A model generated the notes under the pieces. The model made no database searches. It was not told where the DNA came from and worked only from the letters and a program-made list of their open reading frames with translations. Below are positions 44,776 to 62,129 of a DNA stretch of 64,000 nucleotides, piece by piece (the first letter of the stretch is position 1; each line of letters starts with the position of its first letter). Position numbers and translations under genes: made by a program. This DNA is from Acidobacteriota bacterium (GTDB taxonomy: Bacteria > Acidobacteriota > Terriglobia > Acidiferrales > UBA7541), in the NCBI GenBank assembly GCA_003167215.1, contig PMTV01000054.1:1-64000 (forward strand). Direction: 5' to 3'.

Positions 44776-45798
44776 ATGAGAAAGAGCCTGCTAATTGTGT
44801 CGCTCGTGCTCGGCCTGGCTGCCATCGCGGCAGCCCAAAATGGAACGGTGCTGCTAAATGCCGCTGGCGCCACTTTTCCCTATCCGATTTATTCCAAGTG
44901 GTTTGACGTTTACCACACCGCGCACCCGAACGTTCAGATTAACTACCAATCCATCGGATCGGGCGGCGGGATACGTCAACTCCAGGCCGGCACCGTGGAT
45001 TTCGGCGCTTCGGATGGACCCATGACGGACGAGCAGCTCGGGCAATCGAAGTTCAAGATCCTGCATTTTCCCACCGTGCTCGGCGCGGTAGTACCGACTT
45101 ACAATATCGTGGGCGTATCCGGAGAATTAAACTTCACGCAGAAAGCATTAGCTGGAATTTATCTCGGAACGATCACAAAGTGGGACGATCCGGAAATCGC
45201 CAAAGCAAATGCGGGAGTGAAACTTCCGAATGCCGATATCGTCGTGGTTCACCGTTCGGACGGCAGTGGAACCACCTACATCTGGACGGATTTTTTGGCG
45301 AAGGTCAGCGAGGATTGGAAGAAAAAAGTGGGCAACGCGGCCACTTCCGTGAATTGGCCCGCCGGGCTGGGCGGCAAGGGCAACGAAGGCGTTACCGGGC
45401 TGGTCAAGCAAACGCCGAACTCGATCGGCTACATCGAATTGATCTACGCCGTGCAAAACAACATTCCTTACGGGAAAGTTCAGAACGCGGCGGGAAACTT
45501 CGTGAAGGCGGATTTGGCAGGAGTGACGGCAGCAGCTGCCGCCGATGCCAAGAACATTCCGGAAGACTTCCGCGTTTCGATCACTAACGCTCCAGGGCCA
45601 AAGGTTTATCCCATTTCAAGTTTTACGTGGCTGCTGATTCCCGCGCAAATTCAGGACGCAGCGAAGCGTGAGGCCATCAAGGATTTTCTGAAATGGATGT
45701 TGGTAGAAGGTCAGAAGTACAATGAGGGCTTAACGTATGCCCAGCTGCCCAAAGAAGTAATCGCGCGGGAGACTAAAGCGATTTCGCTGATTCAGTAA
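44776..45798 (+). CDS. pstS: Phosphate ABC transporter substrate-binding protein
   Basis: A 340-residue periplasmic binding protein with a signal peptide (SLLIVSLVLGLAAIAAAQ). Phosphate-binding motifs are visible: AAGATFPYPIYSKWF, SIGSGGGIRQLQAGTVDFGASDGPM and VHRSDGSGTTYIWTDFL. It captures phosphate for PstCA. The first gene of a pstSCAB-phoU operon; a Pho-box-like repeat lies in front. GGAG is 13 bases before the ATG. Confidence 0.97.
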   Translation: MRKSLLIVSLVLGLAAIAAAQNGTVLLNAAGATFPYPIYSKWFDVYHTAHPNVQINYQSIGSGGGIRQLQAGTVDFGASDGPMTDEQLGQSKFKILHFPTVLGAVVPTYNIVGVSGELNFTQKALAGIYLGTITKWDDPEIAKANAGVKLPNADIVVVHRSDGSGTTYIWTDFLAKVSEDWKKKVGNAATSVNWPAGLGGKGNEGVTGLVKQTPNSIGYIELIYAVQNNIPYGKVQNAAGNFVKADLAGVTAAAAADAKNIPEDFRVSITNAPGPKVYPISSFTWLLIPAQIQDAAKREAIKDFLKWMLVEGQKYNEGLTYAQLPKEVIARETKAISLIQ

Positions 45799-45799
45799 A

Positions 45800-46798
45800 A
45801 TGTCCGCTGCCGCTACAACAATCGCGCACGAGGTTCCGCCGCAAGCGGGCCCTCGCGCGTTTCTTCGCCGGCTGCGCGGCGGCGACGAAATCGCTCATCT
45901 GATTACTCTCACGTTTGCAGCCCTTATACTCCTCATCACGTCGATGCTGGTGTACGAGCTCTGGGCGAATTCACATCTTTCCCGGGCAAAATTCGGATGG
46001 ATGTTTTTCTGGACTAGGGTGTGGGATCCGAACTTTGACAACTTTGGTGCGGCGCCGTTCATATATGGAACGTTGGTTACTTCGGCAGTGGCGCTCTGCC
46101 TCGCGGTTCCGCTTGGGCTTGCGAGCGCGATTTTTCTTTCCGAGCTCGCGCCGCGCAAGGTCAGTGACGTCATTTCGTTTTTGATTGATTTGCTGGCGGC
46201 CGTCCCCAGCGTGATCTATGGCCTGCTGGGAATTTTTATAGTTGTGCCAGTGATGCGCACGACGATAGGGCCGGCCCTGATTCACACACTCGGTAATGTT
46301 CCCTACATCGGGGCGTTGTTTCACGGACCCAATTACGGAGTTGGTTTTCTGACCGCTGGGATCGTTCTGGCGATTATGGTCGTGCCGTTCATTATTTCTG
46401 TTTCGCGGGAAGTCCTGTTGACGGTGCCGCGCGAGCAGCGCGAAGCGGCGCTGGCGATGGGCGCAACGCGATGGGAATCCACTTGGAAGGTAGTGGTCCC
46501 GTGGGCTCGCACCGGCATCATGGGCTCTGTATTCCTCGCCTTGGCCCGCGCGCTGGGTGAAACGATGGCCGTTACCATGGTCATAGGCAATGCGCCAACG
46601 ATCGCCGCCTCGCTGCTTTCGCCCGGCGATACAATCGCTTCCACCATCGCCAGCCAATTCACGGAAGCGACCGGAGACTTGTATTTGAGTTCGCTGATCG
46701 AGTTGGGGCTGGTGCTATTCCTGATCACGTTTATTCTGAATGGCTTGGCTCGGATTTTGATTGTCGCCACCGGACGCGGAGGAGGTCGGCCCGCATGA
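45800..46798 (+). CDS. pstC: Phosphate ABC transporter permease PstC
   Basis: A 332-residue inner-membrane permease with about six to seven membrane segments (LITLTFAALILLITSMLVYEL, FLIDLLAAVPSVIYGLLGIF). The EAA-type cytoplasmic loop is REQREAALAMGATRWESTWKV at about 215, followed by ALGETMAVTMVIGNAP, both usual for PstC. It begins one base after the pstS stop and overlaps pstA by 4 bases, so translation is coupled. Confidence 0.96.
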   Translation: MSAAATTIAHEVPPQAGPRAFLRRLRGGDEIAHLITLTFAALILLITSMLVYELWANSHLSRAKFGWMFFWTRVWDPNFDNFGAAPFIYGTLVTSAVALCLAVPLGLASAIFLSELAPRKVSDVISFLIDLLAAVPSVIYGLLGIFIVVPVMRTTIGPALIHTLGNVPYIGALFHGPNYGVGFLTAGIVLAIMVVPFIISVSREVLLTVPREQREAALAMGATRWESTWKVVVPWARTGIMGSVFLALARALGETMAVTMVIGNAPTIAASLLSPGDTIASTIASQFTEATGDLYLSSLIELGLVLFLITFILNGLARILIVATGRGGGRPA

Positions 46799-47649
46799 GT
46801 AATCCGCGTATTGTCTGGCGAAAGTCATTGAATTACGTAATGCTGAGCTTGACCGGAATAGCCGCGCTTGGGGTGGTTTCGATTCTGTTTTTTATCCTTG
46901 GGTATTTGATCTGGAACGGCGGCAAATCGCTGAATTGGAATTTTTTTACGCAGCTTCCGAAGCCCGTGGGTGAATCGGGCGGTGGAATGGCCAACGCCAT
47001 TGTGGGCAGCCTGAAGCTGCTGATGTTGGCAGCTTTGATGGGCCTGCCGGTAGGACTTCTTACCGGCGTGTATCTCGCGGAGTTTGGCGGAAAAACGTTT
47101 TCGTTTATCATACGCTACACGACCGATTTGCTGAACGGCGTGCCATCTATCGTTATAGGTATTTTCGCTTACTCGCTGGTGGTGCTCCCGGTGAGGCATT
47201 TCTCCGCGCTGGCCGGCGGCGTGGCGCTGGGGATGATGGTGATCCCGATCACGGTACGAAGCACGGAGGAGTTTCTTAGGGCGGTGCCCGGAAGCCTGCG
47301 CGAAGGCGCAATGGCGCTGGGAGCCAGTAAGTGGAAGACTATCGTTACCGTCGTGCTGCCCGCAGCAAGCGGCGGCATACTAACTGGAATGCTACTGGCG
47401 CTCGCGCGCGTTGCCGGGGAAACCGCGCCGCTGCTCTTCACCGCCTTCGGCAACCGCTTTTGGAGCCCGGGTTTCGAACAGCCGACCGCGTCGCTTCCGG
47501 TAATGATATATACATATGCCATCGCGCCGTATGATGATTGGCACAGGCAGGCGTGGGCCGCGGGCTTGGTATTATTGGGCTTGGTGCTGGTTGCAAATCT
47601 GGGTGCCCGTCTTCTACTGAACCGCGGCAGCGCGGTCAGGAGCACGTGA
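46795..47649 (+). CDS. pstA: Phosphate ABC transporter permease PstA
   Basis: A 284-residue permease with about six membrane segments ([20 protein letters not shown]). PstA-type motifs: [20 protein letters not shown], the EAA-type loop [20 protein letters not shown] and [19 protein letters not shown]. It pairs with PstC to form the channel. It overlaps pstC by 4 bases, and pstB follows after one base. Confidence 0.96.
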
Positions 47650-47650
47650 T

Positions 47651-48490
47651 ATGCCGTCGATTTCCCAAGGCAGCAATGCCACCGCCGCAAGACTCGCTCC
47701 ACAAGTGCGTATGAATGATCCTCGCTCGATGGCTTCGGAAAAGGAGACGCCGGTGCGCTTTCAGATCTCCGACCTGAATTTTTTCTACGGCCCAAAGCAG
47801 GCCATCTTTGGGCTGAACCTGAATATCCCGGTGAACAAGGTGACCGCCTTAATCGGACCTTCGGGATGCGGAAAGTCGACATTCCTGCGCACGTTGAACC
47901 GCATGAACGAGATCATCAGGAACACTCGCGTGGATGGCGAAATCTTGCTCGACGGCCAAGATATACATTCGATGGATGTGGTGAATCTGCGGCGTCGTGT
48001 CGGAATGGTGTTTCAGAGGCCGAATCCTTTTCCGAAGTCGATTTATGAAAACGTGGCGTATGGACTTTGCATCAACGGTTATAAGGGTCGTCTCGACGAA
48101 CTCGTAGAAAGCAGCCTGCACCGCGCGGCGCTTTGGGACGAAGTCAAGGATTACCTTCACAAGTCGGCTTTCGCGCTTTCCGGCGGGCAGCAGCAGAGGC
48201 TGTGTATTGCGCGAGCTCTTGCCGTGAATCCTGAAGTGCTTTTGCTGGACGAGCCCTGCTCCGCGCTGGATCCGGTGACGACCGCAAAGATTGAAGAATT
48301 ATTGTTTCAGCTGAAGGATAGCTGCACCATGGCAATCGTTACTCACAACATGCAGCAGGCAGCCCGCGCCAGCGATTTCACAGCCTTCATGCTTGACGGC
48401 AAACTCATCGAACACAGCGAAACATCTAAACTATTTACGACGCCTACCGATCCGCGTACTGAGGCCTACATTACCGGCCGCTTCGGTTAA
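47651..48490 (+). CDS. pstB: Phosphate ABC transporter ATPase PstB
   Basis: A 279-residue ATPase. Walker [10 protein letters not shown] (about residue 73), signature [17 protein letters not shown], Walker [14 protein letters not shown] and H-loop [14 protein letters not shown] are intact, with the PstB-typical [20 protein letters not shown]. The ~30-residue N-terminal extension (Ser/Ala/Pro-rich) is not needed for the family; ATG 47711 or later could be the true start. The second phoU follows after ~55 bases. Confidence 0.96.
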
Positions 48491-48544
48491 AGTGGATTGG
48501 TTTATCGGGCTATTGCACGCAGAAACGGAAAGGTCTGAGGAAAC

Positions 48545-49210
48545 ATGGAACGACATTTTGAGCGAGACCTCGAAGAGCTGAAACAGCGACTGCTTTGGAT
48601 GGGAAGCCTCGCCGAGCGAGCCGTCCATCAGGCGATCCACGCGGTGCTGGACGGTGAAGAGCACCTCGCCGAGACCGTCTTGACTGAAGAAGATGCAATT
48701 AACGAGATTCAGATTGAAATCGACGAGCGCGTGCAACGCTTGCTGGCACTGCAACAGCCTATGGCCGCCGACTTGCGATTCTTGCTGGCGGTTTCGCGCA
48801 TCAACGGAGACCTCGAGCGCATCGGAGACCAAGCTGTCAATATTGCGCAATCGGCAACGCGGATCATGCGCCATCCGCAGGTGAAGCCTTACGTTGATTT
48901 GCCGCGAATGAGCGAGCTGGCCGAAGGGATGGTCCGCGATAGTTTGAATGCCCTGGTGCGAGGAGATATCGAGCTAGCCCATAGCGTGCTCCAGCGCGAT
49001 GACCAGGTGGACCGGCTGCGCGACCAACTCTTCCGCGAGTTGCTCACCTACATGATGGAAAACTCCGCCGTGGTGTTCACCGCCTTCGAGCTTGTTCTCG
49101 TGGCGAAAAACATCGAACGCATCGGAGATCACGCGACAAACATCGCCGAAGACGTGATTTACTTCGTCGCCGGCCGCGACGTACGGCACCCAGCGCTCGA
49201 CCGCCGTTAG
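48545..49210 (+). CDS. phoU: PhoU, second copy
   Basis: A 221-residue PhoU with two helical units and the metal-binding motifs INGDLERIGDQAVNIAQSA and KNIERIGDHATNIAEDVIYFV. GAGGAAAC precedes the ATG. It closes the pst operon. It is not identical to the first copy at 43901: this one resembles the E. coli-type PhoU more in its opening (ERHFERDLEELKQRLLWMG). Two PhoU paralogues at one locus may divide control of PhoR and transport. Confidence 0.95.
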   Translation: MERHFERDLEELKQRLLWMGSLAERAVHQAIHAVLDGEEHLAETVLTEEDAINEIQIEIDERVQRLLALQQPMAADLRFLLAVSRINGDLERIGDQAVNIAQSATRIMRHPQVKPYVDLPRMSELAEGMVRDSLNALVRGDIELAHSVLQRDDQVDRLRDQLFRELLTYMMENSAVVFTAFELVLVAKNIERIGDHATNIAEDVIYFVAGRDVRHPALDRR

Positions 49211-49295: not shown

Positions 49296-49631
49296 CTAGA
49301 TGCGCGTAAGAGCTGTAGCTTCGTCTTCGGCGAGGTCAAGAATTGTGTCGAGCCGGACCATTTTCAACAGCATCACTACCCGCTTATTCGGCGCGAAGTA
49401 GGTGCATTTTCCGCCCGCGCGCTTCAGCGTGGTGAACGCACGAACGAGTGCCCCAATCCCCGAACTGTCGAGTTCCGTAACGCCGGCGAGATTTACAGCT
49501 ATGTGTGTGGTTCCCGCTTCGATGAGCTGCTGAATCTGATTGCGAAAAGATTCTTCAGCGTCGCCCAATTTCAGCGGCCCGTCGAGATCCAGGATTGTGG
49601 CTCGGCCAGCTTTGCGGATGCCAATGTTCAC
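49296..49631 (-). CDS. STAS-domain anti-sigma factor antagonist
   Basis: A 111-residue STAS protein from GTG 49631 (GTGAGG nearby); a longer frame adds 39 residues without a ribosome site. The conserved phospho-Ser motif is VTELDSSGIGALVRAF at about residue 60. It is similar in layout to the STAS gene at 25270. It lies between the pst operon (convergent) and the GAF-HlyD operon (divergent, shared upstream region). Confidence 0.9.
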   Translation of the reverse strand: MNIGIRKAGRATILDLDGPLKLGDAEESFRNQIQQLIEAGTTHIAVNLAGVTELDSSGIGALVRAFTTLKRAGGKCTYFAPNKRVVMLLKMVRLDTILDLAEDEATALTRI

Positions 49632-49734
49632 ATGTGCCTCACTGCGCTTTGCAAAGCTATCTGAATTATGTCCGGCAATCAAGTCCCTGCAAAAAACTTC
49701 TAAGAAATACGGCAGATGCCGCCAGCAGTCTTCC

Positions 49735-49763
49735 TTGACGCTATACATGGCATTTGCTAGGCT
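49735..49763 (+). promoter_or_regulatory. Possible sigma-70-type promoter upstream of GAF-HlyD operon
   Basis: TTGACG (49735-49740), a 17-base spacer and TAGGCT as -10 element; the -35 hexamer is good, the -10 poor. It lies about 75 bases before the GAF-HlyD start. No sigma-54 motif or copy of the peptide-cassette upstream element was seen here. Confidence 0.3.
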
Positions 49764-49835: not shown

Positions 49836-52262
49836 ATGGAAACATCTTCCGCGCTTTTCGAACTCGCGAGCATATCTTTAGCGTGCCGCGATCAAGACAC
49901 CCTGCTGAAGACCTTCGCCGCCCGAGTGGGCACTACACTCGGAGCGCGCGCCGTGCTCGTATGGACGACGAACGGAACAGCAGAGGAACTCCTTTGCCGC
50001 ATGCGCTGGACTGAGCCGGGCGAACGCTTACATCCCACCGAACTGCCTGTCAACGGAGGAACGCTCGCAATATTGTACCAATCAGCCGCCACCAGACGTT
50101 TGCCCGCACGCGAAATCGCACCAGAAGATCTTGAGCATCTTGATGAGTTCAGCCGTACCCGGGTGAAATCCGCTTTGTATTCATCCCTGCCGGGGGCGCA
50201 AAGGCCGGAAGGCGTAGTCGAGGTTCTCAACAAGCGCGCCGGAGACTTCACCGCCGAAGACGCGCACTTCCTGGAAGAAGCATGCCAGCTGGCAGGCCGC
50301 GCACTGACCAATCTGGGCGCGATTGAACAGGAACGTCAGAGCCAACTCGCGACTCTCGAACGCCTGACCGCGCTATACGACCTGGGCCAGACATTTACAT
50401 CAACTCTGGAACTGGAAGAGCTTCTCCCCATCGTAGCGGGTAAAATCCGCGACATTTTGGGGGCCGGAGCCTGCAATCTCTGGCTGGCTTCGCCTGACGG
50501 ACAGGAACTCAATCTCGCGAGGCAAATCGGCGATGACCCTACGATTGAAGAGGACGCCACCGCGTCATTAAGTGAAGGTTTGCTGGCTGAAGTTGCGCAG
50601 CAAGCGAACCCGAAGTTAGTCGAAGACCCGAGCGGGGAAGCCGGGCTCGCCGAACGCATTGAAGCTGGCGGAGATTTCGAGCTTCAGTCTTGGATGGCAG
50701 CGCCCCTGCGAAAAGACGACGAGGTTCTCGGTGTCGTCGAGATCATTAATAAGGCGGACGGCACGCTGTTCAATGAAGACGATCTATTTTTCCTCTCCAG
50801 TATCAGCGAACAGGCCGCGGTGGCACTGCACAATGCAAACCTGCTGGAGTCCGAGCGAAAGGTTCACGCCCTCGATGCCTTGTTGAAAATTTCGCAGGAA
50901 ATTACTTCCACTCTGGATCTCGATCACGTTTTGACCACGGTAGTGGCGCAGTCCGCATCAGTCGTGCCGTTTGAGAGTTGCGTTATTGGATTTTACGACC
51001 GTGGGCGCTTCGTCCTGGGAGCCGTCTCCGGAGAAACGGAAGTTCCGAAGACGCGGGAAATGAGCGAGCTGCGCGAGCGCATGGAGTGGGTGGCGGAACA
51101 GGATAGTCACGTTGCGGCGAATTTTCATGAGGATGGCTGGCAAGTCGAGCCTGCAGAGGCGCACGCCCAAGTTGTCTCGTTCCTGGAAGCCCATGAATAC
51201 CGAGGCTTTTATGGCTTACCACTGCGCGACGATCAAGGAACGCTCGGCGCAATGATTCTTCTGAGCAAGGAAGCCGATTTTCTCTCAGAAAGCCATTTGG
51301 AAACCCTGGCCATCCTCGCCAGCCAGACTACGGTTGCTATCCGCAACGCCCAGCTTTATCAGCAAGTTCCACTGGCGAATATTTTCCAGCCGTTTGCGCA
51401 GAGAAAGAAAAAGTTCCTGGCCGCTGTGCCGCAGAGCCGCATGATGGAATACGCGCAACGCGCCGGCATCGTGGCCCTGTTTCTGACGATAATCCCATGG
51501 CCCATGCGCGTTGGCACCGACGCTACGGTGGTCCCATCCGAGCGCCGCATGGTGAGCGCAATCGAGGGCGGAGTCGTAAAACAAGTCTTCGTGCGCGAAG
51601 GCGATTTGGTGAAACCAGGCCAGCTGCTTGCGCAACTCGACGACAGCGAGGATCGCATAAAGCTAATAGAAGCCGACACCGCGTTGTCTCAGGTGCGGCG
51701 TGAATTAGCCGAAGCCGAATTCCGGAATGACCCCGCAGCGGCAGGACAGGCTCAGATACGCTCGCAGCTATATTCCGCTGAAGTCGCGCTTGAGCAGCAA
51801 CGAATAAATGACGCGCGCTTGACCTCACCCATCGCCGGCATCGTGACCACTCCGAAGGTGGAAGAAAAATCCGGGTCCATGATTAAACCCGGAGATAGTT
51901 TCTGCGAAGTAGTATCTCAGGACCGCATGGCTGCGGAAATGAGCGTCCCCGAAACCGATCTTTCGCTCGTACGGCCAGGGGAAAATGTGTCTCTGAAATT
52001 AAACGCGTTCCCGACAACTACGTTCGAGGGGACCGTAGATCGCATCGGGGCACAGACTCGGACTGATTCTGGAGACCAGTACTTCCTGGTGCGCGCGATA
52101 TTCGAGAACGCCGGAGGAAAGGCTCGCGATGGAATGGTTGGGCGAGTGAGAATTCGGTCGCGGGGCGGGTGGTTTGACAGCGGATGGTACCCGGTTGGGT
52201 ACGTTATTCTGCGTTCGCCGTTCAGATGGATCTGGCAAAAGATATGGCCCTGGCTGCCGTGA
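49836..52262 (+). CDS. GAF(x3)-HlyD fusion membrane protein
   Basis: An 808-residue protein of unusual architecture. Three GAF-type domains (about 1-165, 185-335 and 350-510; LASISLACRDQDTLLKTFAA, TALYDLGQTFTSTLELEELL, ALLKISQEITSTLDLDHVLT) lie on the cytoplasmic side. One membrane segment (AGIVALFLTIIPWPMRVG, about 543-560) follows. The C-terminus is an HlyD-type periplasmic adaptor: lipoyl half-motif EGGVVKQVFVREGDLVKPGQ, coiled coil, second half LTSPIAGIVTTPKVEEKSG and beta-barrel (AEMSVPETDLSLVRPGENV). It probably couples a cytoplasmic signal to envelope transport. It is the first gene of an operon with the next two. Confidence 0.9.
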   Translation: METSSALFELASISLACRDQDTLLKTFAARVGTTLGARAVLVWTTNGTAEELLCRMRWTEPGERLHPTELPVNGGTLAILYQSAATRRLPAREIAPEDLEHLDEFSRTRVKSALYSSLPGAQRPEGVVEVLNKRAGDFTAEDAHFLEEACQLAGRALTNLGAIEQERQSQLATLERLTALYDLGQTFTSTLELEELLPIVAGKIRDILGAGACNLWLASPDGQELNLARQIGDDPTIEEDATASLSEGLLAEVAQQANPKLVEDPSGEAGLAERIEAGGDFELQSWMAAPLRKDDEVLGVVEIINKADGTLFNEDDLFFLSSISEQAAVALHNANLLESERKVHALDALLKISQEITSTLDLDHVLTTVVAQSASVVPFESCVIGFYDRGRFVLGAVSGETEVPKTREMSELRERMEWVAEQDSHVAANFHEDGWQVEPAEAHAQVVSFLEAHEYRGFYGLPLRDDQGTLGAMILLSKEADFLSESHLETLAILASQTTVAIRNAQLYQQVPLANIFQPFAQRKKKFLAAVPQSRMMEYAQRAGIVALFLTIIPWPMRVGTDATVVPSERRMVSAIEGGVVKQVFVREGDLVKPGQLLAQLDDSEDRIKLIEADTALSQVRRELAEAEFRNDPAAAGQAQIRSQLYSAEVALEQQRINDARLTSPIAGIVTTPKVEEKSGSMIKPGDSFCEVVSQDRMAAEMSVPETDLSLVRPGENVSLKLNAFPTTTFEGTVDRIGAQTRTDSGDQYFLVRAIFENAGGKARDGMVGRVRIRSRGGWFDSGWYPVGYVILRSPFRWIWQKIWPWLP

Positions 52263-52281
52263 AAAAAGAGGAACCTTTAAT

Positions 52282-53208
52282 ATGAAACGCGCCGCGTTGA
52301 TCTTAATCGCCGCAATGGCAATTGTCGGAAATGGTTGCGACAATTCGTCTGTTGCTTCCAGCCCCAAGAATGCGCCCCCACCATCCAACGCAGCTTCGTC
52401 TCAGACTCCCGCGGCGAGCGCAGTTTCCGCAAAAGGGACCGAGACGGCCGATATTCTAAGCGTGCTCACAGTAGAACATCAGGTCGATCTCTCCTCGCAA
52501 CGCGATGGCACGGTGACGTCCGTCGTCAAAGACGAAGGCAGCGTGGTCAAGACAGGCGAAATTCTTGGCAAGCTTGACGACCGAAGCCTGCAACAGGAGC
52601 TCATCAAGGCGCGCGACGATCTAAAGGTGACTCAGAACAACTTGCAATATAAAGCAGCGGAACTGAAGGCTAAGGGCGCAGCCTACCGTCGTCAGCAGCA
52701 GTTGCGGGAAGCAGGATTGTCGAGCCAGGCCGATCTCGAAGCCGCAGAATTCGAAGCGAAAGGCGCTGAGTACGACATGCACGGATATGAGGCCTTGGTT
52801 GAAAGCGGCCAAGCCGAAATCCACCGTCTCGAAATTGAAATCGACCAAACCGTTTTGCGCGCTCCCTTCTCGGGCGTCGTGGCGCGCCGCTACGTTCGAG
52901 AAGGGCAAGCCATCGTCAAGGGTGACAAGTGTTTTCGAGTGAGTCAGCTCTATCCTCTGCAGGTCCAGTTTCAAATTTCCGAATTGGCCAGCCCGCGCCC
53001 CGCACTCGGCGCGCCGGTTAACCTCACGCTCGTGGGAGGTGCCGATCGCCAGGTCAGCGCGAAGGTAGTGAAAGTCAGCCCTACCGTGGATCCGTCCAGC
53101 GATAGTTACAATGTGGTGGCCCAACTCACTGGCTCGGGGATTTCCGATCTGCGTCCCGGAATGGCTGTACGCGTCGGATGGCCTGGAACCTCGCCATCAA
53201 AGCCGTAG
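52282..53208 (+). CDS. HlyD-family periplasmic adaptor lipoprotein
   Basis: A 308-residue protein from ATG 52282 (GAGGAA before it). A lipoprotein signal (LILIAAMAIVGNGC, Cys at about residue 18) is followed by a Ser/Pro/Ala-rich linker. The adaptor fold shows the lipoyl half-motif QRDGTVTSVVKDEGSVVKTGE, a coiled coil (about 110-180) and the second half LRAPFSGVVARRYVREGQAI, then barrel VQFQISELASPRPALGAPVN. An RND- or M50-associated adaptor. It lies 20 bases after the GAF-HlyD gene and 12 before the M50 gene. No RND pump or TolC is adjacent. Confidence 0.9.
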   Translation: MKRAALILIAAMAIVGNGCDNSSVASSPKNAPPPSNAASSQTPAASAVSAKGTETADILSVLTVEHQVDLSSQRDGTVTSVVKDEGSVVKTGEILGKLDDRSLQQELIKARDDLKVTQNNLQYKAAELKAKGAAYRRQQQLREAGLSSQADLEAAEFEAKGAEYDMHGYEALVESGQAEIHRLEIEIDQTVLRAPFSGVVARRYVREGQAIVKGDKCFRVSQLYPLQVQFQISELASPRPALGAPVNLTLVGGADRQVSAKVVKVSPTVDPSSDSYNVVAQLTGSGISDLRPGMAVRVGWPGTSPSKP

Positions 53209-53220
53209 AGGATCTCGACC

Positions 53221-55368
53221 ATGCGTTTCGGTCCTACCAGCCTTCAAGTTTCCAGCGTCCTGGCGAAAGGCCTTAAACGACCCAAACTCCGCACCGATCT
53301 GCGCATCAGCGAACAAACGGTAGCGGGCGAAATCAGTTACGTCGTCAAAAACCGCGAGACGAACTCCTACAACCGATACGGGGCCACGGAATATCAACTG
53401 CTATCACTTTGCGATGGAACTCGTACGGCTGCTGAGATTGCACAGGTCATGTCTGAAAAGGATCCCGATTTGACCACCAGCGAGGCCGACGTGCTCGACT
53501 TCCTCGACTCGGTGGAAGCCACCATGTGGGAGCGCTCGGTCGGGGAAAAAAACTTGGCTGTACTTGAGCGCATTCGCGACGAGCGCAAAGGGCGCATCGA
53601 TCAATCGAGTGCGCTCTACATCAGTTTTAAAGCCTGGGATCCGGACGAGACACTCGGGAAAATGGATCGCTATCTCGGGTGGATGTTCACCAAGGGTTTT
53701 GTCATCTTCTCTTTGTTCGTATTTGTCGTCGCGGTTTATCTGCTCGCGGGCGATTGGACGCGAGTGCAGCAGGACACTTCGGCCTTATACGATTTTGCGG
53801 GTAAGAGCGCCTATGACATCTGGATTTTTTGGATCCTGCTGCTGGGTCTGGGCGCTGTACACGAATTTGGCCACGGTCTGACTTGCAAACACTATGGCGG
53901 CGATGTGCATCAAATGGGCTTTTTGCTCATCTATTTCACCCCCGCGTTTTTCACTGACACCACAGACATCCTTCTGTTCCAGACCGGAGCTCCCCGGCAG
54001 TGGGTTATCTTCGCGGGCATTTGGATTGAACTGGTGATCTGCGGCCTGGCCGCATTGGTCTGGCATTTCACCGCTCCCGGTTCGCTGACGAATGATTTTT
54101 TTTACAAAATGATGCTGCTGAGCGGCATTCAGGGTGCGCTCTTGAACCTGAACCCGTTAGTCAAAGCCGACGGCTACTATGCGTTGTCACAATTTCTCAA
54201 CATGGATAACCTGCGCGAAGACTCCTTCGGGTACTTGCGGGCCTGGGTGCAAAAATATATTTTCCGGCATGACATAGACTTGCCGCCGTCCAGCAAGCGC
54301 CAGCGCCGTGTTTTCTTCCTGTTTGGAATTTCAGCCATCATCTACAGCACATCTCTTCTGATTCTTATGCTTCTGTTTGTTAAGAACATACTCGTAAGCC
54401 AAATGGGCGACGAATGGGGATATCTGGCAACCCTTGGCGTCATTTATTTTTTTGCAAGAACGAGTTTGCGAAAAGCTTTGCCCGTTGCACGGGCTTGGAT
54501 ACGGGACAAGAAGGAGAAATATATGGCCTGGAAAGTGACTCGTGCGCAACAGGTTGGCGCCCTTGGACTGGTTCTGTTGTTTCTGTTGCCTCCGTTTTCG
54601 TCAAAGGTCACCACCGATTTGGTGCTCGAACCCGGAAAGGATGTGCGCGTTCGGGCCGCTGTGGGAGGCAGAATTCAAAGAGTGTTCGTTCGGGAGGGCG
54701 ATGAAGTGAAAGCGGGACAAATATTGGCCATTTTGGAGAATCCCGACATAAGTTCCGACGCGCAATCGCTGACGCAGCGGTTAGCACTCGCCAGCAGTAA
54801 TCTCCGCAATAATCAGGATCGCTCAGACTTCAGCCAAGCGGCGCAAGTGGTTCGCGATCGCGGCCGGCTCGAGCAAGAGCTTTCCGTAGCGCAGAAGAGA
54901 GTGCAGAATCTCGAAATTCGAGCTCCCATGGACGGGGTCGTCATTACTTCCAATGTGGACCAGGAAGCCGGCGAATACCTTTCGGCAGGGGACGAATTTG
55001 CCCGGGTGGTGGATCGCAGCACCATGAAGGCGCGTATCCTCATACAGGACCGCGAGCTTCCGGACGTTCAACCCGGCGCGCCTGCCAAGGTGAAGGTGCT
55101 CCCGTTTCCATACCGAACTTACTCGGGCCACGTGGATAAAATACTTCCGGCCGCGGCGCTGGATCATCCAGTCGCCCAGACTGAGAAGCTGACGCGTTTA
55201 GGGCAAGAGTTAGCGAACTTCGTTGCGGTTGAGATGGAAATTCCAAACCCCGATGGGTCTCTGCGGGAAGGCATGACCGGAAAAGCCAAAATTTCCGGGC
55301 CCCGGCATTCCTTGGCCTGGCAGACCGGCCAAGCGACATGGCGCTGGGTGCGTTCGCAGTTTTGGTAA
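53221..55368 (+). CDS. PqqD-like / M50 site-2 peptidase / HlyD fusion
   Basis: A 715-residue protein joining three parts. Residues ~20-105 resemble a PqqD-type peptide-recognition domain (VKNRETNSYNRYGATEYQLL, CDGTRTAAEIAQVM). The middle (about 150-460) is a polytopic M50 peptidase with zinc motif HEFGH at about 214 and the second-site motif LNPLVKADGYY at about 310. The C-terminus (about 475-700) is an HlyD-type adaptor (AAVGGRIQRVFVREGDEVKA, IRAPMDGVVITSNVDQEAG). Such proteins (YydH-like) are linked to export or maturation of ribosomally made peptides. It ends 37 bases before the convergent SET gene. Confidence 0.92.
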   Translation: MRFGPTSLQVSSVLAKGLKRPKLRTDLRISEQTVAGEISYVVKNRETNSYNRYGATEYQLLSLCDGTRTAAEIAQVMSEKDPDLTTSEADVLDFLDSVEATMWERSVGEKNLAVLERIRDERKGRIDQSSALYISFKAWDPDETLGKMDRYLGWMFTKGFVIFSLFVFVVAVYLLAGDWTRVQQDTSALYDFAGKSAYDIWIFWILLLGLGAVHEFGHGLTCKHYGGDVHQMGFLLIYFTPAFFTDTTDILLFQTGAPRQWVIFAGIWIELVICGLAALVWHFTAPGSLTNDFFYKMMLLSGIQGALLNLNPLVKADGYYALSQFLNMDNLREDSFGYLRAWVQKYIFRHDIDLPPSSKRQRRVFFLFGISAIIYSTSLLILMLLFVKNILVSQMGDEWGYLATLGVIYFFARTSLRKALPVARAWIRDKKEKYMAWKVTRAQQVGALGLVLLFLLPPFSSKVTTDLVLEPGKDVRVRAAVGGRIQRVFVREGDEVKAGQILAILENPDISSDAQSLTQRLALASSNLRNNQDRSDFSQAAQVVRDRGRLEQELSVAQKRVQNLEIRAPMDGVVITSNVDQEAGEYLSAGDEFARVVDRSTMKARILIQDRELPDVQPGAPAKVKVLPFPYRTYSGHVDKILPAAALDHPVAQTEKLTRLGQELANFVAVEMEIPNPDGSLREGMTGKAKISGPRHSLAWQTGQATWRWVRSQFW

Positions 55369-55404: not shown

Positions 55405-55860
55405 TCAACTCAAAATGTATCTGAATGTGCCACGGCATCGGCGAGCGCCGCAATGGCAGGGCACGCGCTGAAGCTTGACAGGGTAGCAATAATCCGCCGT
55501 CAACTCTTCGCCAGTACGTATCTTCCGGCGGCTGAAGAAGAGCAGGTGGTTGCGAACACAGCGCCAGAGCAGATTAGGATTGCACGAGTGGTTGATGAAC
55601 TGGGCACCGCTCCCACCAGAGCTCCCGTCCAGAAACCAGAGGTCGTTCATCTTCGCGAGGTAAGTGTCTTGGGGAAATTCTATATCCCAAACCTGCTCGT
55701 AACTGAGGCGTTTTCCGGTGTATTCGATGACGCGGCGATCTCGAGGAATGTCCTCGAGCGCAAACACTCCATAGCGATGAAGCGAAGAGGGCCCTATTCG
55801 AAGATCATAGTACGCGGTTTTAGAGTTGATCTGGAGTTTCTTCGGGCTCGGCGCTTTCAT
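55405..55860 (-). CDS. SET-domain lysine methyltransferase
   Basis: A 151-residue SET protein from ATG 55860, with GAGG at 8 bases; a longer frame (to 55992) runs into the terminator of peptide 1. SET motifs: GPSSLHRYGVFALEDIPRDR, VIEYTGKRLS, the SAM-binding FINHSCNPNLLWRC (about residue 87) and the catalytic-region tyrosine in ELTADYCYP. A post-SET Cys cluster CHCGARRCRGTF is at the C-terminus. SET enzymes methylate Lys on proteins; here the nearby Lys-rich peptides are candidate substrates (inference). Could equally act on ribosomal or chromatin-like proteins such as the gene at 6962. Confidence 0.93.
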   Translation of the reverse strand: MKAPSPKKLQINSKTAYYDLRIGPSSLHRYGVFALEDIPRDRRVIEYTGKRLSYEQVWDIEFPQDTYLAKMNDLWFLDGSSGGSGAQFINHSCNPNLLWRCVRNHLLFFSRRKIRTGEELTADYCYPVKLQRVPCHCGARRCRGTFRYILS

Positions 55861-55947
55861 GTCGCATCCTCGAAGGACCGCTGCTAAACGGAAGAGCGGC
55901 CAAGCATCTAAGTCGTTTAAGCGGCGCGAAATTCCCCGACAACAAAG

Positions 55948-55982
55948 GAAAAAGGGCTGCCGTTCCTGGGACGGCAGCCCTT
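55948..55982 (-). terminator. Intrinsic terminator of peptide gene 1
   Basis: Read on the minus strand: GGGCTGCCGT, 7-base loop, ACGGCAGCCC (10 perfect pairs), then TTTTTCC. It lies 60 bases after the stop of the 27-residue peptide gene and ~90 bases before the SET gene. Confidence 0.9.
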
Positions 55983-56041
55983 GGTAGTGCAACTGCTAAC
56001 TGATGGCTGGCGCGAAGCCAGCCGGTTCTAATTAAAGGAAA

Positions 56042-56125
56042 TTACGGCCGGCCTACGCCGAACTTGTTCAGAGGCTTCACTGATCCGAGCTTCTTTCCCT
56101 TTTTCACTGTCTTTGCTTTTGCCAT
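56042..56125 (-). CDS. Lys-rich micro-peptide 1 (27 residues), candidate precursor
   Basis: ATG 56125 to TAA. The peptide begins MAKAKTVKKGKKLG, continues with SVKPLNK and ends FGVGRP; 8 of 27 residues are Lys. Aligned with the peptide at 56558-56638, 17 positions are identical, including KPL and the C-terminal GVGR. AAGGAG lies ~10 bases before the ATG. A sigma-54 promoter (56181-56195) and an intrinsic terminator bracket it, giving a monocistronic ~220-nt RNA. No membrane segment or Cys is present. It could be a RiPP-type precursor, a secreted peptide or a SET substrate; too short for automated gene finding. Confidence 0.75.
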   Translation of the reverse strand: MAKAKTVKKGKKLGSVKPLNKFGVGRP

Positions 56126-56180
56126 GGTCTTGAGTCTCCTTAGAATTTTTTGTTTTCTTTCTGACTACACTGCAATTAGT

Positions 56181-56195
56181 GCAATCCGCTCGCCA
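56181..56195 (-). promoter_or_regulatory. Sigma-54 promoter of peptide gene 1
   Basis: Read on the minus strand: TGGCGA-GCGGA-TTGC (followed by A). The invariant GG (-24) and GC (-12) are present at the exact sigma-54 spacing. The predicted start is near 56169, ~45 bases before the peptide ATG. Confidence 0.75.
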
Positions 56196-56281
56196 AACTC
56201 TCGTCGCGTCTTCCCAATTGCCCGAACCTCATTCAAAAGCACTTATCGCCAGTGAGAAGCACAATGCGCTGATACCCGCGA

Positions 56282-56299
56282 TTGAATGTGTTTAATTTC
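56282..56299 (-). promoter_or_regulatory. Conserved upstream element 1 (candidate activator site)
   Basis: TTGAATGTGTTTAATTTC on the plus strand; 14 of 18 bases match the element at 56789-56806. It lies 87 bases from the -24 element of peptide gene 1, the matching distance being 88 bases for peptide gene 2. An additional palindrome GTTGAAT-A-ATTCAAC is at 56310-56324. Typical location for a sigma-54 activator site. Confidence 0.6.
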
Positions 56300-56309
56300 T
56301 TGCGATCGC

Positions 56310-56324
56310 GTTGAATAATTCAAC
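56310..56324. promoter_or_regulatory. Palindrome GTTGAAT-A-ATTCAAC
   Basis: Perfect 7-1-7 inverted repeat ~115-130 bases upstream of the sigma-54 promoter of peptide gene 1. Candidate extra site for the adjacent sigma-54 activator; a degenerate version (GTTGAAATTCTCAC) is at 56797-56810 upstream of peptide gene 2. The rest of the ~430-base gap 56126-56557 holds the promoter, elements and terminator listed here, and no other gene. Confidence 0.5.
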
Positions 56325-56451
56325 GTCCGGGGAAGCTACTGTGAGTCCTCACGGAACTCATTTATGATTGCGGAGCGGAAAATGGCCGCGTATCAAGCCC
56401 GGGAGATTAAGACCTCGAGACGAATTCGGGAAAGGGAAGAATCCATCTAAC

Positions 56452-56486
56452 AAAAAAGGGCTGCCAGCCTTTCGGTGACAGCCCTC
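56452..56486 (-). terminator. Intrinsic terminator of peptide gene 2
   Basis: Read on the minus strand: GAGGGCTGTCACC, GAAA loop, GGCTGGCAGCCC and TTTTTT; a near-perfect stem with one bulge and a 6-T run. It lies ~72 bases after the 26-residue peptide gene. Closely similar in stem to the peptide 1 terminator. Confidence 0.9.
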
Positions 56487-56557
56487 TAATTCCTTATTAA
56501 TTTATTGATCGGTGCGTGTGCAATTAAGCAGTCACACCTGTGACGCGAACCGCTAAC

Positions 56558-56638
56558 TTATTGCCTACCCACGCCAACAATCGTGAGGGGCTTCGTTGCT
56601 TCCAGCTTCTTTGCTTTCTTCAAGGTTTTCTTGGCCAT
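56558..56638 (-). CDS. Lys-rich micro-peptide 2 (26 residues), candidate precursor
   Basis: ATG 56638 to TAA; the peptide begins MAKKTLKKAKKLE, continues ATKPL and ends TIVGVGRQ; 7 of 26 residues are Lys. The strong GGAGG lies 7 bases before the ATG. The start, KPL and GVGR match peptide 1, and the C-terminal residue differs (Gln instead of Pro). It has a consensus sigma-54 promoter upstream and its own terminator. The conserved basic N-terminus and conserved C-terminal tail could be leader/core parts, but this is not demonstrated. No similarity to a known named peptide family is claimed. Confidence 0.78.
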   Translation of the reverse strand: MAKKTLKKAKKLEATKPLTIVGVGRQ

Positions 56639-56686
56639 GGTGGTTCCTCCGTTGGTATGAGTCGCTTTGGCGACGCCTTCCTTTAG

Positions 56687-56701
56687 GCAAAAGGAGTGCC
56701 A
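56687..56701 (-). promoter_or_regulatory. Sigma-54 promoter of peptide gene 2
   Basis: Read on the minus strand: TGGCAC-TCCTT-TTGC; both the -24 (TGGCAC) and -12 (TTGC) elements fit the consensus with correct spacing. The predicted start is near 56675, ~37 bases before the ATG. Confidence 0.85.
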
Positions 56702-56753
56702 ATGCGAATCGAAAATACACCGAAGCTAAAGTGCTGTTTTATAATGCTTTAGA

Positions 56754-56783
56754 CTATCCCGACTTGTCTTGTTTCCGGGATAG
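56754..56783. repeat. Inverted repeat CTATCCCG/CGGGATAG between activator gene and peptide 2 promoter
   Basis: Perfect 8-bp stem (56754-56761 and 56776-56783) with a 14-base loop, 53-82 bases upstream of the -24 element. It could be an activator site or a weak end-of-gene structure for the activator; no T-run follows on the minus strand. Confidence 0.4.
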
Positions 56784-56788
56784 ATCGG

Positions 56789-56806
56789 TCAAATGTGTTG
56801 AAATTC
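56789..56806 (-). promoter_or_regulatory. Conserved upstream element 2 (candidate activator site)
   Basis: TCAAATGTGTTGAAATTC on the plus strand; shares 14 of 18 bases with the element at 56282-56299, including a run AATGTGTT. It lies 88 bases from the -24 element of peptide gene 2, between it and the activator gene that ends at 56838. Confidence 0.6.
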
Positions 56807-56837
56807 TCACCACTCCGCTGAAAAAGTAAGCGAGTAG

Positions 56838-58226
56838 CTACAGACTGTACTTACGACACAAGTAGTTGAGCCGGTTGCGGTCCACTCCCAGCAATCGCGC
56901 CGCATCTGCCTTTCCTTGTTTGGCTTGCTCCAGCGCTTCTTGAACCCAGCGCCGCTCAAAAGTCTCCATTTCCTTCGATAGATTGATCCCACCCGAGGGT
57001 AGCCGGAAGCGGTTGCGCGAATCGCGGCCGGAGGCTTGCACAATTTCGCCGGGGAGGTCCTTCAATGAAATCACTTCGCCGTCGGTCATGATAACAAGCC
57101 TTTGAATGGCGTTCTGGAGTTCCCGGACGTTCCCAGGCCATGGATAGCGCTTTAGCGCCAGCATGGCGTCATCTGCGATGCGCTTTGGTGGGAAACTATT
57201 GGCAGCGCAATACACGCTGACAAAGTAGTCTGTAAGGACCGGTATATCCTCCATTCTCTCGCGGAGAGAGGGCACAAAGATGGGCACCACGTGAATCCGG
57301 TAATAGAGATCCTCGCGAAACCTTTCCTCGCGAACCATCTCCTCCAGATCTTCGTTTGTCGCACTAATTAGGCGGAAATCCACGCGGATGGGCTTTTTGC
57401 CACCTAGTCGAGTGAACGAGCGATCCTCCAGCACACGCAAGAGTTTGCTCTGGAGTGCGGGCGTAAGTGTCGCAATTTCATCAAGAAACAGCGTTCCTTG
57501 GTGGGCCATTTCAACGCGCCCTTCCTTCATGGCTGTTGCGCCGGTGAAGGCTCCCTTCTCATAGCCAAATAGCTCCGCCTCCATTAAGCCTTCGGGAAGC
57601 GCGGCGCAGTTCACGCTGACGAATGCGCGGTTTCGTCGCGGACTCTGTTCGTGAAGAGCCCTTGCGACAAGTTCTTTACCCACCCCGCTCTCTCCGCGGA
57701 TGATGACGTTGGTGGTCGTCCTGGCCATTCGCTTTATGGAATCGAAAACGTGGCTCATCGCATCGGTCGAGCCGATCAAATCGCCATGCGTACTCTTGCG
57801 GCTTATCTCCTGGCGGAGAATTCGGTTTTCGCGCTGAATGTGTAATTTTTCAACAGCGCGCTCCACCACGTGCCGGAGGACGTCGGTGTCGAGGGGCTTG
57901 AGAAAGTAGTCATAAGAGCCTGCATCGATCACTTTCATAGCGGTCGGTTTGGTTTCGTCAGAGCTGATTACGATTACGAGCGTATCGATTTCGCTTCCTA
58001 CCAGCCGGGCAAGCAACTCCGTGCATTCGCGGACTCCTGCATCGCCGAGGGGAAGACCCAGTAAAAGGACTTCCAGCTCTGATCCCTGGAGCAGCCTGTA
58101 GGCCTCCGCGAGATCATCACCCTCCAGGACTTCGAACTCCGATCGCAAAGCGGACGCAATCTTTGAGCGGAAGCTGTGCTCATCGTCGACAATCGCAACT
58201 CTAGGTTTAGTCGCAGCGGGAGTGAT
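56838..58226 (-). CDS. Sigma-54-dependent activator with degenerate receiver domain (AUC start proposed)
   Basis: A 462-residue reading if the frame starts at ATC 58226. From there it reads TPAATKPRVAIVDDEHSF, a clear receiver N-terminus; the next usual start (TTG 58148) would delete this, and no ATG/GTG/TTG lies between it and an upstream in-frame stop. GGAG precedes the ATC at 7-8 bases. The receiver has the acidic pair but at the phospho-acceptor position has Gly (VLLLGLPLGDAG). The AAA+ domain has Walker A GESGVGKE (about 177) and sigma-54-contact GAFTGA (about 223). A Fis-type helix-turn-helix ends the protein. Probable activator of both peptide genes. Confidence 0.9.
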   Translation of the reverse strand: MTPAATKPRVAIVDDEHSFRSKIASALRSEFEVLEGDDLAEAYRLLQGSELEVLLLGLPLGDAGVRECTELLARLVGSEIDTLVIVISSDETKPTAMKVIDAGSYDYFLKPLDTDVLRHVVERAVEKLHIQRENRILRQEISRKSTHGDLIGSTDAMSHVFDSIKRMARTTTNVIIRGESGVGKELVARALHEQSPRRNRAFVSVNCAALPEGLMEAELFGYEKGAFTGATAMKEGRVEMAHQGTLFLDEIATLTPALQSKLLRVLEDRSFTRLGGKKPIRVDFRLISATNEDLEEMVREERFREDLYYRIHVVPIFVPSLRERMEDIPVLTDYFVSVYCAANSFPPKRIADDAMLALKRYPWPGNVRELQNAIQRLVIMTDGEVISLKDLPGEIVQASGRDSRNRFRLPSGGINLSKEMETFERRWVQEALEQAKQGKADAARLLGVDRNRLNYLCRKYSL

Positions 58227-60132: not shown

Positions 60133-61032
60133 GTGCCGACACCGCTCAAATTCAACGTTGCCCTGGTGCAGATGGCCGTCGGCGCCAAAGCCGCCGAAAA
60201 CCTCGCGCGTGCTAGCTCTCATATTGAGAAAGCCGCTCACGCGGGCGCGCAAGTAGTCTGCCTGCCCGAACTTTTTCGCTCGCAGTACTTCTGCCAGCGC
60301 GAAGACACCGCGAATTTTGAATTGGCGGAGTCCGTGCCAGGACCCACCACGGAAGAATTGGGTCGCGTGGCACAAAAAACTAAGACCGTTATCGTTGCAC
60401 CGCTCTTCGAACGCCGGGCGCCGGGAATTTACCACAACAGTGCCGCGATCATTGACGCCGACGGCCGGATCGCCGGCGTCTACCGCAAGATGCACATTCC
60501 CGATGACCCCGCTTATTACGAAAAATTTTATTTCACGCCCGGAGACCTGGGTTTTCGCGCCTTTTCCACCAGTGCCGGTAAAATCGCCACGTTGATCTGC
60601 TGGGATCAATGGTATCCCGAGGGCGCGCGCCTGGCAGCTTTGAATGGAGCATGCATCCTTTTCTATCCCACCGCGATCGGTTGGCACCCTAGCGAGAAAG
60701 ATTCTAACGGCGAAGCGCAGCGCGATTCATGGCGCACCATCCAGCGCAGCCACGCCATCGCCAACGGGCTCTACGTTGCGGCCGTCAATCGCGTCGGACA
60801 CGAAACCCCGGCGGAGGGCGGAGCCGGCCTCGAATTCTGGGGCAGCTCGTTCCTTTGCGATCCTCAGGGAGTCGTCATCGCGGAAGCTTCCACCGACCGC
60901 GAAGAAATTTTGTACGGCGAAGTAGATCTCGCGCACCTGGAAGACGTTCGCCGCAATTGGCCGTTCCTGCGCGACCGCCGAATTGATGCCTATGCCGGCC
61001 TCGAACAGCGTTTCCTCGACGAAAAACCTTGA
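60133..61032 (+). CDS. aguB: N-carbamoylputrescine amidase
   Basis: A 299-residue nitrilase-family enzyme that converts N-carbamoylputrescine to putrescine. The catalytic triad is visible: Glu in VVCLPELFRSQYF (about residue 45), Lys in VYRKMHIPDDP (about 118) and Cys in LICWDQWYPEGARLAAL (about 155). YFTPGDLGFRAF and WRTIQRSHAIANG agree with the family. It overlaps aguA by 4 bases, giving the complete agmatine-to-putrescine route. GTG start. Confidence 0.95.
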   Translation: MPTPLKFNVALVQMAVGAKAAENLARASSHIEKAAHAGAQVVCLPELFRSQYFCQREDTANFELAESVPGPTTEELGRVAQKTKTVIVAPLFERRAPGIYHNSAAIIDADGRIAGVYRKMHIPDDPAYYEKFYFTPGDLGFRAFSTSAGKIATLICWDQWYPEGARLAALNGACILFYPTAIGWHPSEKDSNGEAQRDSWRTIQRSHAIANGLYVAAVNRVGHETPAEGGAGLEFWGSSFLCDPQGVVIAEASTDREEILYGEVDLAHLEDVRRNWPFLRDRRIDAYAGLEQRFLDEKP

Positions 61033-62129
61033 AATCACGCAACCGCATCAGCCGGTCCATTGAAGAAAATATCCCGGCGGCGCTCGGCTTCCGCATGCCC
61101 GCTGAATGGGAGCCTCACGAAGCTACATGGATCGGTTGGCCTCATAACTCAACGGATTGGCCCGGGAAAATCGCTCTCATCCACTGGGTGTACGGCGAGA
61201 TCGTCCGCAAAATTGTTCCGGGCGAACTCGTTCGCATCCTGGTGAATTCGACAGCGCATGAAGCGCAAGCACGCCAAGTTTTGAAAAGCGTAGGTGTCAA
61301 CTTGGGCAAAGTACAATTTCTGCGTTTCCCCACGAATAGAGGATGGACGCGCGACTTCGGCCCCATCTTTGTCAAACGCGCAAAGCCCCGCCGCGAAGTT
61401 GCCATCGCCCGGTTCCGTTTCAACGCTTGGGCTCGCTATCCAGACTGGAAAAAAGATGATGCAATTCCAGCACAAGCCGTGCGCCGGTTGAAAATGAAGA
61501 TCTTCCGCGCCCATATCGGCCAAGGTGATGTGGTTCTCGAAGGCGGAAGCATCGATGTGAATGGTTCCGGCACGCTGCTCACCACCGAAGAGTGCCTTCT
61601 CGATCAAAAACGCCAGGTCCGAAATCCGGGGTTCGATCGTGCGCAGACCGAAACGGCGCTGCGAGGATACCTCGGCGTGAAAAACATTATATGGCTCGGC
61701 AAAGGAATCGCAGGGGACGACACGCACGGTCACGTCGATGATTTGTGCCGCTTTGTGAATCGACGCACTGTCATCCTTTGTCGCGAGAAAAACTCTCGTG
61801 AGAAGAACTACCGGCCGCTCGAAGAAAATTGGGAGCGCTTGCGAGGGGCACGGCTGGAAGACGGAACCAAAATAGACGTCATTGAGTTGCCCATGCCGTC
61901 GCCTCTCCTTTTCAAGGGCGTGCGCCTCCCCGCCAGCTACGCGAACTTCTACATTTCGAATTCTGCCGTGTTGGTGCCTACATTCAACGATCCGAGGGAC
62001 CGTGTAGCTCTCCGCATTCTCGGCGATTTGTTCCCCACACGCTCGGTAGTTGGAATCCATTCCGTTGATTTGGTCTGGGGGTTCGGCACCATTCATTGCT
62101 TGACACAGCAGCAGCCTTCTCGCTCCTGA
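61029..62129 (+). CDS. aguA: Agmatine deiminase
   Basis: A 366-residue member of the guanidino-group-modifying family (PPAD type) that turns agmatine into N-carbamoylputrescine. MPAEWEPHEATWIGWPHN, WTRDFGPIFVKR, VVLEGGSIDVNGSGTLL, DDTHGHVDDLCRFV and the catalytic Cys in GTIHCLTQQQP at about residue 356 are present. The TTG start overlaps the aguB stop. Downstream is the HIT gene, separated by ~78 bases and probably independent in function. Confidence 0.96.
   Translation: MKSRNRISRSIEENIPAALGFRMPAEWEPHEATWIGWPHNSTDWPGKIALIHWVYGEIVRKIVPGELVRILVNSTAHEAQARQVLKSVGVNLGKVQFLRFPTNRGWTRDFGPIFVKRAKPRREVAIARFRFNAWARYPDWKKDDAIPAQAVRRLKMKIFRAHIGQGDVVLEGGSIDVNGSGTLLTTEECLLDQKRQVRNPGFDRAQTETALRGYLGVKNIIWLGKGIAGDDTHGHVDDLCRFVNRRTVILCREKNSREKNYRPLEENWERLRGARLEDGTKIDVIELPMPSPLLFKGVRLPASYANFYISNSAVLVPTFNDPRDRVALRILGDLFPTRSVVGIHSVDLVWGFGTIHCLTQQQPSRS

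Follow-up and report, generated by a model that had tools for sequence, protein, structure and literature searches.

Two short units that follow each other at an almost constant distance, each with the parts of a regulated small gene, raise the question of what they encode and of whether the distance between them is itself under selection. They lie in a stretch of 64,000 nucleotides from an Acidobacteriota bacterium (contig PMTV01000054.1, hereafter the window). A first, sequence-only reading of this stretch had described them as tandem sigma-54 peptide cassettes of conserved spacing, shaped by selection on regulation. As argued below, they probably encode sigma-54-controlled precursor peptides that are recognised through their leader and cleaved and/or exported by a neighbouring RRE-M50-HlyD system, the RRE (RiPP recognition element) being a domain that binds leader peptides.

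Unit A (~56310-55947) and unit B (~56831-56451) both lie on the minus strand, and each comprises upstream inverted repeats, a -24/-12 box, a ribosome-binding site, a gene of 26-27 codons and a terminator:

56310-56324, minus strand: enhancer-type palindrome of unit A, GTTGAATTATTCAAC; the best of the sites and a probable response-regulator site
~56305-56282, minus strand: second, degenerate site of unit A, which takes in the upstream element of the sequence-only reading
56180-56196, minus strand: sigma-54-type -24/-12 promoter of unit A, TTGGCGAGCGGATTGCA; exact GG-N10-GC, enriched in homologues
56042-56125, minus strand: peptide gene of unit A, MAKAKTVKKGKKLGSVKPLNKFGVGRP, 27 aa; ATG at 56125, ribosome-binding site AAGGAG at 56136-56141
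55947-55982, minus strand: intrinsic terminator of unit A, flagged by the automatic scan
56797-56831, minus strand: enhancer-type sites of unit B, GCTTACTTTTTCAGC and GGTGAGAATTTCAAC, 20 bases apart, degenerate (56817-56831 and 56797-56811)
56686-56702, minus strand: sigma-54-type -24/-12 promoter of unit B, TTGGCACTCCTTTTGCC; exact GG-N10-GC spacing
56558-56638, minus strand: peptide gene of unit B, MAKKTLKKAKKLEATKPLTIVGVGRQ, 26 aa; ATG at 56638, ribosome-binding site GGAGGA at 56645-56650
56451-56485, minus strand: terminator-like hairpin and T-run of unit B, found by unit alignment and not flagged by the automatic scan

Element, promoter, ATG and terminator of both units were found on the minus strand where the first reading had placed them, and the constant offset of 504-513 bases that it gave was measured inside the window as 503-513 (element 507, -24/-12 box 506, ATG 513, terminator 503-504). 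Judged from the coordinates, each unit would give an RNA of ~220 nt; an Rfam scan of the window returned one tRNA only. The upstream element read at 56282 and 56789 is present at its 507-base offset, but it marks only the margin of two inverted repeats that extend further. TTNAACACATTNAA, which occurs once in the genome and forms the edge of a larger inverted repeat, was rejected as a regulatory element.

The two peptides are 65% identical. When the identity between units is set against shuffled sequences, the leader codons stand highest (z=6.1), followed by the terminator (4.2), the tail codons (3.5) and the promoter (2.8); the upstream region has 1.2, and the untranslated spacers lie near chance (5'UTR 1.6, 3'UTR -0.1). 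The spacing between units is not conserved in relatives. ATG-to-ATG distances in the tandem sets of relatives range from 116 to 996 bases, and loci syntenic with the window include values of 521, 487, 480 plus 116, 463, 409 and 171, which rules out a spacing of ~505 bases as a conserved or selected feature; fixed distances are found inside a unit only. That the offset is constant in the window is a trace of the duplication of an entire unit and not of selection on unit length. This duplication is old, since both paralogue types occupy the same place in related genomes.

A family search with a two-sequence profile built from the unit A and unit B peptides matched not only the two units but also a third copy, which the genome carries on a different contig, and dozens more in its relatives. 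Some 70 homologous genes of the same design occur in related Acidobacteriota, and within the bacterial family 15 of 89 genomes have such peptides; the related genomes that bear names are labelled uncultured Acidobacteria or Candidatus Acidiferrales. The third copy, MAKKTLKKATKLEATKPLTIAFGRR (G000:C9:68878-68801, locus L004/L043), is unlinked and carries its own palindrome and sigma-54-type box. Forty peptides, chosen on leader pattern and ribosome-binding site and blind to promoters, align over a common leader, MAKKxLKKxKKLxxTKPL, and differ in their tails, which in the window peptides have only eight residues. Among related copies, pN/pS (from crude counts, with tails compared ungapped) is 0.13 for the leader of the unit A type and 0.10 for that of the unit B type, against 1.08 and 1.00 for the respective tails. 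The front of these genes is constrained and the back nearly unconstrained, a difference which argues that they are real, translated coding genes. As to selection on regulation, the fixed geometry of enhancer, promoter and ATG speaks for it, although the strongest constraint falls on the peptide leader.

Neither Pfam nor NCBIfam holds a family model for the window peptides or a model that describes the peptide/exporter system, and the literature searched gave no description of either the family or its export system. An omics study of Granulicella reports bacteriocin-type clusters, none of which is identifiable with that of the window (PMC7074687). The similarity search for related loci returned no match for the 27-aa peptides, queries of that size being too short, and HMM searches with the peptides in the phylum sample matched the window's genome only, or none; the latter negatives are weak, because neighbourhood scans later found diverged peptides in such genomes.

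The promoter-blind set also gives a fair test of sigma-54 control, because the score behind the larger table of 70 genes made use of the promoter. A TGG-N10-GC box starting 60-84 bases before the ATG is present in 31 of the 40 genes and in 6.8% of controls (1381 short ORFs with a ribosome-binding site), which bears out the reading of the units as tandem sigma-54-type peptide cassettes; a stricter match is found in 21 of 40, against 1.7%. Box rates in the 70-gene table are similar. The nine genes of the set without a box in the expected interval count against the explanation preferred here. Further upstream, homologues carry an inverted repeat, GTTGAA-N3-TTCAAC, at about -129 from the -24 box and often a second one at about -109; palindromes with at least five of six arm pairs occur in 27 of 55 homologous genes, where shuffled sequences predict 0.3. 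Exact sites of the pattern GTTGAWNNNWTCAAC number only four in the window's genome, one of them in unit A and another 96 bases before the sigma-54 box of the third peptide copy. An exact GTTGA-type palindrome is also seen outside the window at G000:C4:138357 (L258), where a strong TTGGC-N8-TTGC box follows 166 bases later, and no peptide of the lysine-leader family was recognised there.

The gene next to unit B offers a candidate for the protein that binds these sites:

56838-58148, minus strand: NtrC-type sigma-54 response regulator (Pfam Sigma54_activat, 238 bits; Response_reg)

Other genera have GGGGAA-N3-TTCCCC or a similar sequence as the repeat, and the recognition helix of the adjoining regulator changes with the palindrome type, from DRNR[LM]NYLCRK to forms ending in MKYLCRK. 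Since helix and palindrome vary together, the neighbouring NtrC-type protein is the probable activator of both units. The remaining hallmarks of sigma-54 control are in place as well, with the GG-N10-GC spacing of the -24/-12 box, a candidate activator site upstream and rpoN in the genome.

On the other side of the units lie the genes of the putative exporter cluster, identified by domain matches and cluster conservation:

49296-49748, minus strand: STAS-domain protein, a facultative part that in 9 of 24 related loci is encoded divergently from the exporter operon
49836-52262, plus strand: GAF domains fused to a HlyD-type adaptor
52174-53208, plus strand: HlyD/RND-type periplasmic adaptor
53221-55368, plus strand: M50-HlyD exporter/protease, with a PqqD-like (RRE) N-terminus, an M50 core (HEFGHG) and a HlyD adaptor

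GAF-HlyD, HlyD, M50-HlyD, peptides and regulator are conserved together in most of 24 loci, and many of the ~70 homologous peptide genes adjoin this cluster. In the window's genus a peptide gene is present in 11 of 11 genomes with M50-HlyD (in one, G009, found only by inspection of the flanks) and in none of nine without it, giving a Fisher p of ~6e-6 on the assumption of independent genomes, an assumption that does not hold. Two incomplete genomes, G036 and G090, have peptides and no detected exporter. Across the class sample the exporter occurs in 60 of 299 genomes (E up to 1e-60), and nearly every close M50-HlyD homologue with usable flanks adjoins a short ORF with a basic leader and a sigma-54-type promoter; at three exporter loci (L223, L224 and L225) no such peptide was detectable. 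It is very improbable that the units are ordinary duplicated small genes unconnected to the exporter, with neighbourhood and sigma-54 boxes due to coincidence or descent. Tandem duplication would indeed account for the constant offset in the window, and some peptide copies lie far from the exporter; yet the linkage persists over several families of the class despite strongly diverged sequences, peptide and exporter co-occur genus-wide, and the promoter geometry is fixed even in unlinked copies.

Like the exporter loci with no such peptide and the genomes with no detected exporter, the absence from the cluster of a gene for an ATPase, an energised transporter or TolC counts against the preferred explanation. 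No ABC gene is conserved over the 24 loci, which leaves type I secretion (ABC-HlyD-TolC) without its partner, and the ABC genes near the cluster in the window belong to a phosphate-uptake operon of the pstSCAB-phoU type (44776-49210), a local feature just upstream of the exporter. At 60133-62129 lies a carbon-nitrogen hydrolase gene beside one of the peptidyl-arginine/agmatine deiminase family, possibly an agmatine-to-putrescine pathway.

The M50-HlyD protein would supply both recognition and cleavage. Its HEFGHG and NLNPLxKxDGYY motifs align in six homologues and carry the HExxH and NxxPxxDG of site-2-type proteases, with a Pfam M50 score of 20.8 bits, under the cut-off of 27.2. A structure model of its N-terminal 145 aa, folded with 21 homologues (mean pLDDT 74), consists of three strands and three helices. 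Its structural matches are leader-bound lasso B1 proteins (Z 9.9-10.1), PqqD (Z 8.4), and further ThcOx, cyanobactin heterocyclases and sactipeptide maturases; PqqD models match the same region by sequence too (E 5e-4). Leader binding by an RRE is therefore the natural reading of the modelled N-terminus, of a fold type which is also found in some proteins outside RiPP pathways.

Between the exporter and unit A lies one further gene:

55405-55860, minus strand: SET-domain lysine methyltransferase, adjoining unit A (82 bits to KMT2A)

Its catalytic motifs are intact (INHSCNPN, GEELTADY and the post-SET cysteines), and the genome has no second SET gene. Eight of 13 SET genes in seven genomes adjoin a lysine-leader peptide gene, at no fewer than five separate loci, which makes chance adjacency very unlikely. 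To our knowledge, SET-domain lysine methylation is not known from any RiPP; the linkage suggests as a possibility that the enzyme modifies the peptides. Such methylation would be optional, since in at least four of the genomes with peptides no SET gene was detected. The same enzyme lends some appeal to a different proposal, by which the peptides are intracellular, histone-like mini-proteins that bind nucleic acids, with a working lysine front methylated by SET and a tail of no importance. Their lysine content is high, and an intact SET of the H3K4 type, with KMT2A as best match and as the sole SET of its genome, stands beside several peptide genes. We nevertheless consider this improbable, as it accounts neither for the tight linkage and co-occurrence with the RRE-M50-HlyD export cluster nor for the tandem-repeat cores of relatives, and several peptide-bearing genomes have no SET gene.

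Such tandem repeats are frequent among the cores of the peptides, of ~20-130 residues, that lie beside exporters of the class. Examples include (NKLAP)19 in L229, (NSPLS)12 in L238, (GFQGPG)8 in L231, LSKQAH/LSKQIS units in L232-235, (LAKSTN) units in L237, ~14 GTLQR in L155, ASLQR in L145 and TALQR in L153. A second leader type (M.I.KKSLIS.LKT.KKAN, also written M.IQKKSLI...) accompanies a more distant exporter clade, with repeats of NSSLKGLK (L132:3761), ~10 LGK (L130:3895) and (MHK)5 (L131:1204), the last of which suggests possible metal binding by its Met-His-Lys composition. The weak pentapeptide- or collagen-like matches of repeat cores probably reflect low complexity. Two other kinds of gene were observed near M50-HlyD homologues: one for an ARKAPLSVDAE-type repeat protein whose N-terminus is of another kind (MADPKSVVIKLTNEQQEAIRRATGQ...), next to a diverged M50-HlyD gene (L240:4120, L250:2133), and a conserved 69-aa ORF (MAPNKS...) with a sigma-54-type box near another clade (L245:3391, L246:7940), a possible further precursor type.

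As to what the exported product would be, we lean slightly towards a secreted peptide that serves competition or communication, over a component of envelope or matrix. The structural alternative, in which matrix, surface or scaffold peptides carry repeats with a physical role, bears on this last step only, and we regard it as possible, at rather less than even chances. The repeat units vary by lineage while periodicity is kept, the conserved cluster holds no immunity gene in the 24 loci, and distant Proteobacterial M50-HlyD relatives adjoin giant secreted proteins, one with LEPR-XLL; on the other hand, the eight-residue tails of the window are short for a structural element, and tails evolve at the rate of neutral sequence.

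Taken as leader-recognised precursors, the two units would be neighbouring, independently transcribed genes. The phosphorylated NtrC-type regulator would bind the paired inverted repeats, which precede the -24 box by ~110-130 bases, and, as anatomy and covariation suggest, activate the sigma-54 polymerase at each promoter. At some loci, as the linkage hints, the SET methyltransferase would probably methylate lysines first. The lysine-rich leader would then be recognised by the PqqD-like RRE of M50-HlyD, and the M50 domain would cleave the leader and/or the membrane complex would pass the peptide through the HlyD adaptors to the periplasm or the outside; domain content, structure model and linkage are consistent with both steps. 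The freed short tail, or the repeat core of relatives, would act outside the cytoplasm. Soils are rich in Acidobacteriota, about whose secreted peptides little is known. We tentatively raise the possibility of a new, lineage-wide class of ribosomal peptide natural products in this phylum, marked by RRE-M50-HlyD, sigma-54 control and fast-evolving or repeat cores, and SET-methylated in some lineages. Gene callers easily overlook such precursors because the genes are 20-130 codons long, and the sigma-54 box, lysine leader and RRE-M50-HlyD neighbour together provide a signature for the peptide-export system. The system would also couple leader recognition, by a domain of the same protein, directly with a protease-adaptor, and may bring histone-type lysine methylation into peptide maturation.

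Among known systems, the RRE-dependent RiPPs (PqqA/PqqD, lasso B1, sactipeptides, cyanobactins) likewise have a precursor of conserved leader and variable core beside a protein with a PqqD-like domain, and both are found here, the domain being counted by fold only. Unlike in those systems, the PqqD-like domain of the window is fused to an M50-HlyD membrane protein, and radical SAM, YcaO, LanB or another classical maturase is not conserved in window-type clusters; we describe the system as one that would work like an RRE-dependent RiPP system and claim no class membership. The metalloproteases of daptides (MpaP) and epipeptides (YydH/LiaK) act on small ribosomal peptides too. The window's M50 domain matches their models NF041824 with 183 bits (cut-off 300) and NF058609 with 38 bits (cut-off 225), but differs in its fusion to HlyD and RRE. 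No other daptide or epipeptide genes were seen in the cluster, which has no further conserved gene, and no radical SAM gene, the epipeptide partner, was among the scanned window genes. The regulator shares receiver, AAA+ and Fis-type HTH domains with the PEP-CTERM response regulator (TIGR02915), and its 407 bits, below the model cut-off of 502.6, together with its own palindrome set it apart as a distinct group. Finally, Proteobacterial M50-HlyD/HlyD/TolC clusters possess the same set of HlyD adaptor and M50-HlyD protein (23-25% identity over 86-98% of the query), although their apparent cargo measures thousands of residues and two of the three loci include TolC, whereas the neighbours of window-type exporters have ~20-130 residues and sigma-54 promoters. 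On an E. coli plasmid (NZ_CP081770.1, L276), M50-HlyD, two HlyD adaptors and TolC directly follow a 13.4-kb gene for an Ig-like protein, an arrangement suggestive of secretion genes dedicated to one giant surface protein. A Thalassospira marina plasmid (L273/L275) has the same exporter set, together with genes for TolC and a DUF3467 protein, next to a 12-kb LEPR-XLL gene, with the motif near the N-terminus of the giant protein. By their gene neighbourhood, a link of position only, these loci support the export of leader-bearing cargo by such complexes.
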